Assembly: GCF_000421465.1 (NCBI RefSeq)
Contig: NZ_ATXB01000001.1
Coordinates: forward strand, 868,001 to 932,000
Direction of reading: 5' to 3'
Length of the DNA stretch: 64,000 nt
DNA from: Methylohalobius crimeensis 10Ki
GTDB lineage: Bacteria; Pseudomonadota; Gammaproteobacteria; Methylococcales; Methylothermaceae
Shown: piece after piece, positions 2,553 through 6,616 of the stretch
Position numbering within the stretch: position 1 is the stretch's first letter
Layout of the letters: the number at the start of each line of letters is the position of its first letter
The notes under the pieces: model-generated
Told to the model about the DNA's origin: nothing
Seen by the model: only the letters and a program-made list of their open reading frames with translations
Database searches by the model: none
Translations under genes and position numbers: made by a program

Positions 2553-3572
2553 ATGAGCAAAGAAATCACCCTGACCGGGATCACCACCACCGGTACGCCC
2601 CATCTGGGCAATTATGTCGGAGCGATCCGGCCGGCCATCGATGCCAGCCATAATCAGAATGTACTGCCGTTTTATTTTCTCGCCGATTATCATGCTTTGA
2701 TCAAGTGCCAGGAGCCGGAGCGCATCCAGCAATCCACTCTGGAGATCGCCGCCACCTGGTTGGCGCTGGGTTTGGATACCGCCAACGCCGTGTTCTATCG
2801 CCAGTCGGATGTGCCTGAAATCACCGAGCTGACTTGGGTGATCAGCTGCGTCACCGCCAAGGGTTTGATGAATCGCGCCCATGCCTATAAAGCCGCGGTG
2901 GCCGAAAACCAGGAGGCGGGGGAGAAGGATCCGGACAAGGGCATCACCATGGGGCTGTTCAGCTATCCGGTATTGATGGCCGCCGATATTTTACTTTTCA
3001 AGGCGAAAAAAATCCCCGTGGGCAAGGACCAGATCCAACACCTGGAAATGGCCCGCGACATCGCCGCCCGCTTCAATCACATTTACGGAGAGCATTTCGT
3101 GTTGCCGGAAGCGGTGGTGCGGGAAGAGACTTCCGTCCTGCAAGGGCTGGACGGGCGCAAAATGAGCAAGAGCTACAACAATACCATTCCCATTTTCGCT
3201 CCGGAAAAACGATTGCGGAAATTGATCATGAAGATCAAAACCAACTCCCTGGAGCCGGGTGAGCCGAAAGATCCGGACACCTGCACGCTGTTCAGCATCT
3301 ATCAGGCTTTCGCCACCCCGGAAGAAGTGGAGCAGCTGCGCCAGCGGTATCGGGAAGGGATTGCCTGGGGAGAAATGAAACAATTTTTGTTCGAATATCT
3401 GAACGCCCATTTCGGCGAAGCCCGCGAGCGCTACGAGGATTTGCTGCGGCATCCCGGCGAAATCGAGCGTCAACTCCGGGAAGGAGCGGCCAAGGCGCGG
3501 GAAGTGGCGGTGCCTTTCATGCGTGAAGTGCGAAAAGCGGTGGGCATCGCGCCTTTGGCTGAAAGAGGCTGA
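2553..3572 (+). CDS. trpS: tryptophanyl-tRNA synthetase
   Basis: A class I aminoacyl-tRNA synthetase that charges tRNA-Trp in the cytoplasm. The HIGH-type motif is HLGN at residues 17-20 and the KMSKS loop (RKMSKSYNN) is near residue 203; both bind ATP. The length of 339 residues is normal for the bacterial enzyme. ATG 2553 follows a GAGGGA ribosome-binding site. The gene stands alone on the plus strand, divergent from speA. There is no plus-strand terminator after it; the hairpin that follows has its T-tract on the other strand. Confidence 0.97.
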   Translation: MSKEITLTGITTTGTPHLGNYVGAIRPAIDASHNQNVLPFYFLADYHALIKCQEPERIQQSTLEIAATWLALGLDTANAVFYRQSDVPEITELTWVISCVTAKGLMNRAHAYKAAVAENQEAGEKDPDKGITMGLFSYPVLMAADILLFKAKKIPVGKDQIQHLEMARDIAARFNHIYGEHFVLPEAVVREETSVLQGLDGRKMSKSYNNTIPIFAPEKRLRKLIMKIKTNSLEPGEPKDPDTCTLFSIYQAFATPEEVEQLRQRYREGIAWGEMKQFLFEYLNAHFGEARERYEDLLRHPGEIERQLREGAAKAREVAVPFMREVRKAVGIAPLAERG

Positions 3573-3597
3573 TTCGATCCATGCGGTTCTGGCGGAC

Positions 3598-3624
3598 AAA
3601 AAAAGACCCGCTCGAAGGCGGGTC
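3598..3624 (-). terminator. rho-independent terminator for the minus strand
   Basis: A 7-bp stem (3605-3611 with 3618-3624, GACCCGC/GCGGGTC) and a 6-nt loop are followed on the minus strand by seven Ts (3598-3604). It lies 57 nt after the stop of the 31-codon minus-strand ORF and is oriented to end that transcript. Confidence 0.75.
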
Positions 3625-3680
3625 AACAGCGTCAAGTGCAAGAAAGGAGGTTTAACGCTAGAGGAGGAGGAAGTAACCAG

Positions 3681-3776
3681 TCACTTTTTACGATAATGAT
3701 GAATACAAAATCTGATCGAGAAGATGACAGTCGATACAAAAGCGGAAAGCAGTACGAGTTCCAGTGTGTTGATCAT
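3681..3776 (-). CDS. candidate 31-residue single-pass membrane peptide
   Basis: ATG 3776 opens a 31-codon frame, MINTLELVLLSAFVST... with a basic end HHYRKK, stopping at 3681. Residues 4-24 form one hydrophobic segment, and the charge pattern puts the C-terminus in the cytoplasm. The ORF sits between a good sigma70-type promoter (3811-3838) and a terminator (3598-3624), so the region is very likely transcribed. The ribosome-binding site is weak (GGGGC). I do not recognise a family. The transcript could instead be a small RNA in which the ORF is incidental. Confidence 0.4.
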   Translation of the reverse strand: MINTLELVLLSAFVSTVIFSIRFCIHHYRKK

Positions 3777-3810
3777 GGCATTGCCCCGGCTTAATGTAAC
3801 CCTTGTCTAA

Positions 3811-3838
3811 ATTATAGGTTTTGTAATTTCATTTACAA
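3811..3838 (-). promoter_or_regulatory. sigma70-type promoter driving the small minus-strand transcript
   Basis: On the minus strand, TTGTAA (3838-3833) is followed after 16 nt by a perfect TATAAT (3816-3811). The predicted start is about 3804, some 27 nt before the small ORF. The surroundings are clearly AT-rich compared with the rest of the window. Confidence 0.55.
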
Positions 3839-3967
3839 TCTTGAGAATTCGTAATTCTTTGTTTCCATAATAGAAACATTTCAAAAGCAAAGCGCTTTTT
3901 CTATGCGCATCAAACAACGGATTTGTGGCTTATTATCCCATCGAAACATGAAAGTTTGATGAACGAG

Positions 3968-4531
3968 TCACACCCGCTGTCGGCTCCGGCGTGGCGTGAT
4001 GCCGCTGGCAATGATGTGCGCCGTGCGAAGCGGTTCCGGAACGGTGCTGTGAACGGCGGTGCAGCCGATGACCCGAAGGGCGGTTTCGGCGTCGATTCCC
4101 GCCCGCTGGACATGGACCCCGGCCATCGGTTGCGGCTCTCCCGCCTTTTGGATCAGGTTCCACTTGCGTTTGCCGCCGGATACCTTTTCCATTAAAGCGC
4201 GTCGGACGGCGGCCAGATCGGGACGCTTTCGGCAGACCACCATGACGGGAAGCCCCGTTTCGTCGAACAGGCGGTGGATGTCCACCACGTTGAAACCGCC
4301 CAAGGCGATGCCCTGCAGCATGATGAGTTGCAGGTGATCTCGAAAGCGACTTTCCGAAACGAGCGTGGCCAGTCGTTGGGTGGCGTTGGCGCCGTCTCGG
4401 CGCACTTTTCCGCATACCACGCCATCCAGCCGGGTCAGGGTGAAGATCGCCCCCACCACGGTCACGTCCCCCCGGTGTGTTTTCGCGAAGGGCGTGTCGT
4501 CGAATCCGATGATATGAGACGGATGTGCCAT
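3968..4531 (-). CDS. DUF99 (UPF0215) family protein
   Basis: A protein of 187 residues with the marks of DUF99: IIGFDDTPF near the N-terminus, VVGAIFTLTRLDGVV, a GIALGGFNVVDIHRL core, VMVVCRKRPD, and the end VPEPLRTAHIIASGI. The family is best known from archaea, is distantly related to endonuclease V-type folds, and has no established function that I can name. ATG 4531 is used; an upstream in-frame TTG at 4540 is possible. It diverges from the MlaC-like gene. The 31-codon ORF unit lies 191 nt downstream on the same strand but has its own promoter. Confidence 0.75.
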   Translation of the reverse strand: MAHPSHIIGFDDTPFAKTHRGDVTVVGAIFTLTRLDGVVCGKVRRDGANATQRLATLVSESRFRDHLQLIMLQGIALGGFNVVDIHRLFDETGLPVMVVCRKRPDLAAVRRALMEKVSGGKRKWNLIQKAGEPQPMAGVHVQRAGIDAETALRVIGCTAVHSTVPEPLRTAHIIASGITPRRSRQRV

Positions 4532-4631
4532 TGGGTCCAAACCATTGCGTGGAAACAGTAAAATACTCTGCCAGGCGCCGCTAGAACAAATCCGAGCGCG
4601 GCGATAATTAACATGCGATGGAGGAATTTCG

Positions 4632-5417
4632 ATGCGACCGATTCAATGGTTGGGGGTGTTGGGGATTTTCTTGCCTGGAATTTTGATGGCCGGGCCGCAG
4701 CAGGCGGATGGGGCGCCGGCGGAGGAGGGTTCCGCTACGATGCAAAATGAGCCGGCTGAGAACGGACCGGAATCGGAGGCCGCATCTCCTGCAGAATCGG
4801 AGGATGAGGGGCAATCCGTCGAAGAAGAATCTTCCCAGCCTCCTTCGCAAGCGCAAGAGGCCGCTTCCTCGACGGAGAAGGCCACTGCGGTGGTGGCGAA
4901 ACTCAATCAAACTTTGCTGGAGATCATGCGGCGGGCCAAGGCGTTAGGTTATTCGGGGCGTTATCAATTGCTCGAGCCGGTGGTTGAGCAGGTCTACGAT
5001 TTTTCCGCCATTTCCCGTTACGTTTTGGGTTCCCATTGGAGTCGGCTGACGAAGGAGGAAAAAGAAACCTTTATCGCCAAAATGACCGAATACGGCATTG
5101 CCTCTTATGCTGCGCAGTTTGATGATTATGCCAATGAACAATTCAATATTCTGTCGGAGGAGCCGTTTCGGACGCGTTTTCGGGTCGTGAGAGCGATGCT
5201 GGAAGTCCCCGAAGGGGAAGACGTGGAATTCGTCTATATCCTACGTCCCACCCGGGAGGGCTGGAAAATTATCGATGTGCGTTACGACGGGGTTAGCGAT
5301 TTAGCGTTGAAGCGGGGGCAATTCGCCGACATTCTCGCCAAAGAAGGGTTTGATCGTTTATTGGCCAAACTGGATGAGAAGATCGACAATTACGCCAAAG
5401 GCGGAAAAGAGGGGTAA
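4632..5417 (+). CDS. MlaC/Ttg2D-family periplasmic lipid-binding protein, possibly HpnM
   Basis: A 261-residue exported protein. A hydrophobic signal peptide (about residues 1-21, ending LMAG) is followed by a low-complexity Glu/Ser/Pro-rich segment (about 25-80) and then an MlaC fold (LNQTLLEIMRRAKALGYSGRY ..., YVLGSHWSRLTKEEKETFI). MlaC proteins carry phospholipids across the periplasm. The HpnM branch of the family accompanies hopanoid genes, and a hopanoid locus begins about 3.6 kb away, so HpnM is plausible but not proven. GGAGGA sets the start at 4632. The acidic insert makes it some 50 residues longer than E. coli MlaC. The IS110 element begins 8 nt after its stop. Confidence 0.8.
   Translation: MRPIQWLGVLGIFLPGILMAGPQQADGAPAEEGSATMQNEPAENGPESEAASPAESEDEGQSVEEESSQPPSQAQEAASSTEKATAVVAKLNQTLLEIMRRAKALGYSGRYQLLEPVVEQVYDFSAISRYVLGSHWSRLTKEEKETFIAKMTEYGIASYAAQFDDYANEQFNILSEEPFRTRFRVVRAMLEVPEGEDVEFVYILRPTREGWKIIDVRYDGVSDLALKRGQFADILAKEGFDRLLAKLDEKIDNYAKGGKEG

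Positions 5418-5459: not shown

Positions 5460-6616
<1,157 letters not shown>

Follow-up and report, generated by a model that had tools for sequence, protein, structure and literature searches.

A short minus-strand unit of Methylohalobius crimeensis 10Ki is best explained as a transcription unit that holds one gene, spans about 206 nt, and combines two functional parts, a selected gene for a 31-residue membrane protein and a conserved, sRNA-like 3' tail. That the transcript has a dual function, combining a small membrane protein with a putative trans-acting anti-Shine-Dalgarno tail, is a reading we favour by a little over even chances. The unit lies within the window, the 64,000-nt stretch analysed here (G000:C1:868001-932000, in a 3.5-Mb genome designated G000), and its features are collected in Table 1. 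A preliminary description had offered a small membrane regulator or a small RNA; since the ORF is selected and the 3' end is conserved and sRNA-like, both rather than either are indicated, while a regulatory role stays presumptive for each.

Table 1. Features of the unit (window positions, unless a contig is named)
Feature	Position	Strand	Remarks
Inverted repeat TGTTTC-N7-GAAACA, probable activator site	3860..3878	-	exact palindrome; centre about -66 from predicted start
Promoter TTGTAA-16-TATAAT	3811..3838	-	10/12 consensus matches
-35 hexamer TTGTAA	3838-3833	-	
-10 hexamer TATAAT	3816-3811	-	
ORF, ATG start, 31 aa, MINTLELVLLSAFVSTVIFSIRFCIHHYRKK	3776-3681 including stop	-	homologues and codon-position differences
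First anti-Shine-Dalgarno-like segment TTCCTCCTCCTCT	3660..3672	-	predicted about 70% unpaired
Hairpin AGCGTTAA / TTGACGCT, loop 3651-3636 with ACCTCCTTTC	3628..3659	-	pairing in nine genomes
Intrinsic terminator, 7-bp stem (3624-3605), T7 (3604-3598)	3598..3624	-	paired in nine genomes
L121, intergenic-looking RNA with ACCTCCTCCTC, hairpin, terminator, GGAAC-N17-GTC upstream	G000:C1:857764-857828, outside window	-	seven genus genomes

Layout of the unit and its upstream region

The promoter, the 31-codon ORF encoding a one-helix peptide with a basic C-terminus, and the stem with seven Ts that had been reported as a complete small unit at 3598-3838 were all located, the two promoter hexamers being separated by a spacer of 16. 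Pattern scores of the promoter and terminator were dropped as evidence, being no better than chance: by pattern alone, one promoter was found against 0.8 expected and three terminators against 2.7 expected. It is through conservation, not pattern scores, that the unit exceeds chance. Nine genomes of the genus share the ORF, the terminator, and the promoter hexamers (slightly altered in some), the columns TTGTA and TAT are invariant in the alignment of these nine units, and many relatives possess similar hexamers, also with a spacer of 16.

A trpS gene (identified by eye) adjoins the unit in G000, G001, G002, G005, G006, and G008, as does a DUF99-like ORF (also by eye) in G000, G001, G002, G005, and G006. 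The neighbourhood is different in G003 and in the f4 genomes, in a comparison that excludes G009, so the unit occurs in more than one genomic setting. An attenuator of a downstream gene was rejected, because the region past the terminator is occupied by a gene of the opposite strand (trpS by eye), with its 3' end towards the unit. A plus-strand ribosome-binding site was likewise rejected for the block conserved downstream of the ORF, since no start codon follows it, and the plus-strand frame overlapping the block is interrupted early in some relatives, which argues against a plus-strand reading. Elsewhere, the window contains an IS110-type transposase-like ORF (by eye, 5657-6616, plus strand) and a bacterial small SRP RNA (RF00169, 30812-30908, plus strand), and in G003 the start region GAGGAGGAAGTTATG lies ahead of four transposase-like gene copies, one of them truncated (L214-L217, by eye).

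Upstream of the promoter lies an exact palindrome, which the preliminary description had overlooked together with the 3' element. With the transcription start predicted at 7 nt past the -10 hexamer and each unit scored by its best TTGTTTC-N6..8-GAAACAA match, 15 of 23 tail-bearing units have the palindrome centred at either -66 or -76, positions that differ by one helical turn, and 6 of 31 units without the tail have it at -66; the consensus had been derived by eye from these upstream regions before they were counted for spacing. Fewer than 1% of 200 mononucleotide shuffles reach the score of the window unit. In the six Methylococcus units the palindrome is weak or lies out of position, and a search of nine genomes yielded no clear palindrome regulon, matches exceeding the reversed-pattern control in five of the nine. 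Its fixed phase suggests an activator, for which the palindrome would be the binding site.

A conserved tail between stop codon and terminator

The gap surrounding the ORF had been called otherwise empty, which proved wrong on the 3' side, where positions 3680-3625 hold a conserved RNA element. Between stop and terminator, UUCCUCCUCCUCU is followed by a hairpin with ACCUCCUUUC in its loop, both resembling anti-Shine-Dalgarno sequences; CCTCCTTTC is identical to the 3' end of 16S rRNA. The tail of the window unit contains CCUCCUCCUCU and CCUCCUUUC. Across nine genomes, a CTCCTC-type sequence precedes TAGCGTT and ACCTCCT, the latter two being invariant (9/9) and CTTGACGCT mostly retained. Mean identity over 36 pairs of these genomes reaches 80% for the tail minus the terminator (73% with gaps as mismatches), in an alignment that omits the handful of variable positions separating the stop codon from the first motif, and 86% for the block plus hairpin (81% with gaps as mismatches); the ORF, at 64% over the identical 36 pairs, falls below the tail.

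The tail hairpin is paired in 94.4% of cells in the nine genomes, and no pair has changed on both sides, so covariation lends it no support; in G004 it is weakened to six of eight pairs, four of them G-U. The terminator stem is paired in all nine genomes, with two pairs changed on both sides, both in G006. Stability of the whole transcript is no better than that of shuffles (z -0.44). The CCUCC motifs are predicted to be unpaired at 0.71 versus 0.45 at other positions, and at 0.73 versus 0.60 in shuffled surroundings (22 units), a modest excess that is absent in 6 of the 22. The 3' end is a conserved sRNA-like module of two C/U-rich anti-Shine-Dalgarno-like segments, one of them in a hairpin loop, with a putative regulatory function.

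Such a tail could also belong to a transcript that is a small mRNA only, acting in cis on its own ribosome-binding site or stabilising the mRNA, which we regard as unlikely. Pairing of the first CCUCC with the unit's own Shine-Dalgarno region, which would favour a cis action, is predicted at about 0.5-0.7 in G002, G003, G006, and G009 and, within Methylococcus, at 0.41 in G094 and about 0.2 in G012 and G042, whereas it is 0.03 or less in G000, G001, G004, G005, and G008, and the better conserved loop motif does not exceed 0.03 in any of the nine genomes.

The peptide family and its association with the tail

The peptide is the product of a real, selected gene. Codon-position analysis counted 370/113/594 differences at first, second, and third positions (36 genome pairs, 28 codons), and changes at third positions exceed the others; translation is presumed from this selection. 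The basic C-terminus of the peptide is probably cytoplasmic. When 101 genomes were searched at the protein level, eight of the nine other genomes of the genus proved to have close homologues, with E values of 3.9e-7 or better, while the ninth, G007 (96% complete), possesses a paralogue only. Two copies of the peptide are present in seven of ten same-genus genomes, and one in the window genome.

Searching 301 genomes of the order with a 19-sequence profile gave 55 matches with E no higher than 2.6e-4, from which a family set of 54 loci was defined by dropping G137, which has internal stops, and leaving out weaker matches to E 0.05. Screening 370 genomes spread over the class gave two matches at E 0.001, both in Methylococcales. 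Six family members tested against Pfam and NCBIfam reach no family's cut-off, and a PDB search with the peptide profile returned nothing better than E 0.38. This single-helix protein family, without a Pfam match, is confined to Methylococcales within the genomes searched. Its pattern is roughly M-T-x-V/L-E-x-x-L, a T near position 16, S-V/I-x-F/Y-C, and then H/N-Y, with residues E6, L9, T16, and C24 retained across families. At L014 (G066) and L021 (G033), no stop codon separates the family peptide from a larger ORF that follows in the same frame and carries a CSSCH heme-type motif.

A terminator lies within 120 nt of the stop at 28 of the 54 family loci, the other 26 having none there, and CTCCTC or TCCTCC intervenes between stop and terminator in 23 of these 28 units, being missing in five. 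The 23 motif-bearing units represent two families and eight genera, six of them being near-identical Methylococcus copies. As a control, terminators were collected from G000 and G057 over 864 kb; the motif occurs in the 60 nt before 3 of 79 of them, this unit included, or before 2 of the 78 others, a distance shorter than the 120 nt of the test. A covariance model built from the nine tails recovers all nine, and in G007 it found nothing convincing (best E 0.013). Some match at E up to 1, mostly weak, was obtained in 104 of 151 genomes. Outside the genus, weaker matches adjoin family peptides in G060, G012, G024, G027, G042, G048, G094, G072, G019, G057, and G033, and others do not; only some of 19 tail-like matches inspected outside the genus's nine lie beside a family peptide.

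Across 84,980 species genomes, a pattern scan returned 38 loci, five of which combine peptide and tail: two in Methylothermaceae records, one in Methylohalobius, and two in Methylococcus. Another, L040 (a Methylococcaceae record), has the tail and, on our reading, no intact family peptide, and the 32 remaining loci (Pseudomonas, Burkholderiales, Paenibacillus, and more) have no family peptide. Two groups of RNAs, alike within each group, show CCTCCTC, then TTGACC and a terminator, with no family peptide: one in Pseudomonas (L042, L043, L049, L057, L065, and L069) and one in Burkholderiales/betaproteobacteria (L039, L066, and L070).

That 31 of the 54 family members are without the tail-plus-terminator arrangement would suit a protein whose sole function is to serve a membrane enzyme as small subunit or modulator, the tail being a relic of a shared terminator region; we consider this improbable, as the tail is better conserved than the ORF in the nine genomes and its motif recurs in eight genera. 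A hydrophobic type I toxin, its RNA checked by an antisense RNA, would match the peptide in size, single helix, basic end, and own promoter and terminator, yet it is very improbable given the four residues retained across families, the duplicate copies in most same-genus genomes (though not in the window genome), and the only promoter-like site in 3000-4700 being on the minus strand, with none on the plus strand.

Related systems, a probable sibling RNA and candidate targets

Small-protein genes sharing one transcript with a regulatory RNA are described for the ccaF1-CcsR (CIN1) loci of alphaproteobacteria (PMC10253847), and the alpha-r14/cuckoo RNAs (NfeR1, CcsR1-4) are described as displaying a CCUCC-type anti-Shine-Dalgarno motif, CCUCCUCCC, in unpaired regions of hairpins (PMC10746234). 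The unit resembles the former in joining a small-protein gene to an sRNA-like RNA part, and the latter in having CCUCC-type anti-Shine-Dalgarno motifs, predicted unpaired, in its tail. It differs in host class and in its partner protein, which in CIN1 is a DUF1127 RNA-binding protein and here is a one-helix membrane peptide; the six family peptides gave no Pfam family above cut-off that would indicate a DUF1127 partner, and CCUCCUCCC is absent from the window tail. At gathering scores, Rfam, which may or may not hold cuckoo, alpha-r14, or CcsR models, returned only the small SRP RNA in the window and nothing at 14 loci. On the best reading, the unit works like the DUF1127/CcsR loci and is not a member of them.

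The SgrS/SgrT locus of E. coli carries a small ORF, a base-pairing part, and a U-rich terminator on one short transcript. The present unit shares this arrangement, with a putative pairing part, and differs in having no known sequence relation to SgrS/SgrT, in occurring only in Methylococcales among the genomes searched, and in having no more than candidate targets. Of the marks of a dual-function sRNA, it has an ORF under selection, from which translation is presumed, and a conserved non-ORF RNA segment with an accessible motif, the accessibility excess being modest. It also resembles 3'UTR-derived sRNAs, in which the regulatory RNA is taken from the 3' untranslated region of an mRNA (PMC8625941), processing here being hypothetical. 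A literature search at the level of titles and listings found no paper on this unit and none with sRNAs of Methylococcales methanotrophs as its main subject; for Methylosinus sporium, a type II methanotroph, transcription units have been treated in print.

Seven of ten tail-model matches inspected are one RNA (G000, G001, G003, G004, G005, G007, and G009), represented in the window genome by L121. It carries TCCTCCTC before a hairpin and terminator in all seven genomes, ACCTCC in six, and ACCTCCTT in four, and in all seven is preceded by GGAAC-N17-GTC, which resembles an ECF sigma promoter. No shared ORF was seen by inspection, and G007, where the peptide unit was not found, retains this RNA. 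It is a probable anti-Shine-Dalgarno sRNA and sibling of the unit's tail.

With regard to possible targets, G000 has 39 sites with GAGGAGGA ahead of an ATG versus five for the reversed pattern, although strong ribosome-binding sites alone would explain the 39 equally well. The extended complement GGAGGTTTAA was found shortly before ATG in none of nine genomes, leaving no conserved extended target. Among the G000 sites are those of a Rieske-type gene (by eye) and of the two pmoB copies (Pfam PF04744). In the start region of pmoB, 8 to 10 nt are perfectly complementary to the tail of the same genome in the six same-genus genomes checked, and 7, 6, 6, 7, and 9 nt in five f4 genomes. Eight genes reach at least 9 nt in a 380-gene sample of the window genome that is without pmoB (missed by the ORF caller), the Rieske-type gene being best with 11; in G057, pmoB ranks 8th of 306 by unconstrained duplex energy and 20th of 306 by perfect-match length. 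Both genes are named as candidate targets only. An hfq gene is present in the window genome and in nine of ten others searched, and the U7 terminator would suit binding by Hfq.

In the proposed mechanism, the transcript would encode the 31-aa protein with one membrane helix, and its 3' part, either within the intact transcript or once cleaved off, would pair with purine-rich ribosome-binding sites of the GAGGAGGA type and block translation of other mRNAs. A regulator at the palindrome near -66 would switch the promoter, so that protein and RNA would be made together in response to one signal. Coding and the conserved RNA element come from genome comparison; trans action, Hfq binding, and co-regulation by an activator are what we infer from sequence.

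A further proposal, to which we give little credence, sees a methanotroph-specific stress RNA, in which the membrane micro-protein and anti-Shine-Dalgarno sRNA, together with the sibling sRNA (related motifs, ECF-sigma-like promoter), would repress membrane and respiratory mRNAs that are strongly translated, among them those for the methane monooxygenase subunit pmoB and a Rieske protein, and so couple methane oxidation to stress of the envelope or of energy supply. The unit may represent a gammaproteobacterial parallel to the CcaF1/CcsR arrangement, and the presence in cultured Methylococcus of a conserved small protein and an anti-Shine-Dalgarno-like tail on one apparently regulated transcript provides a testable entry point.
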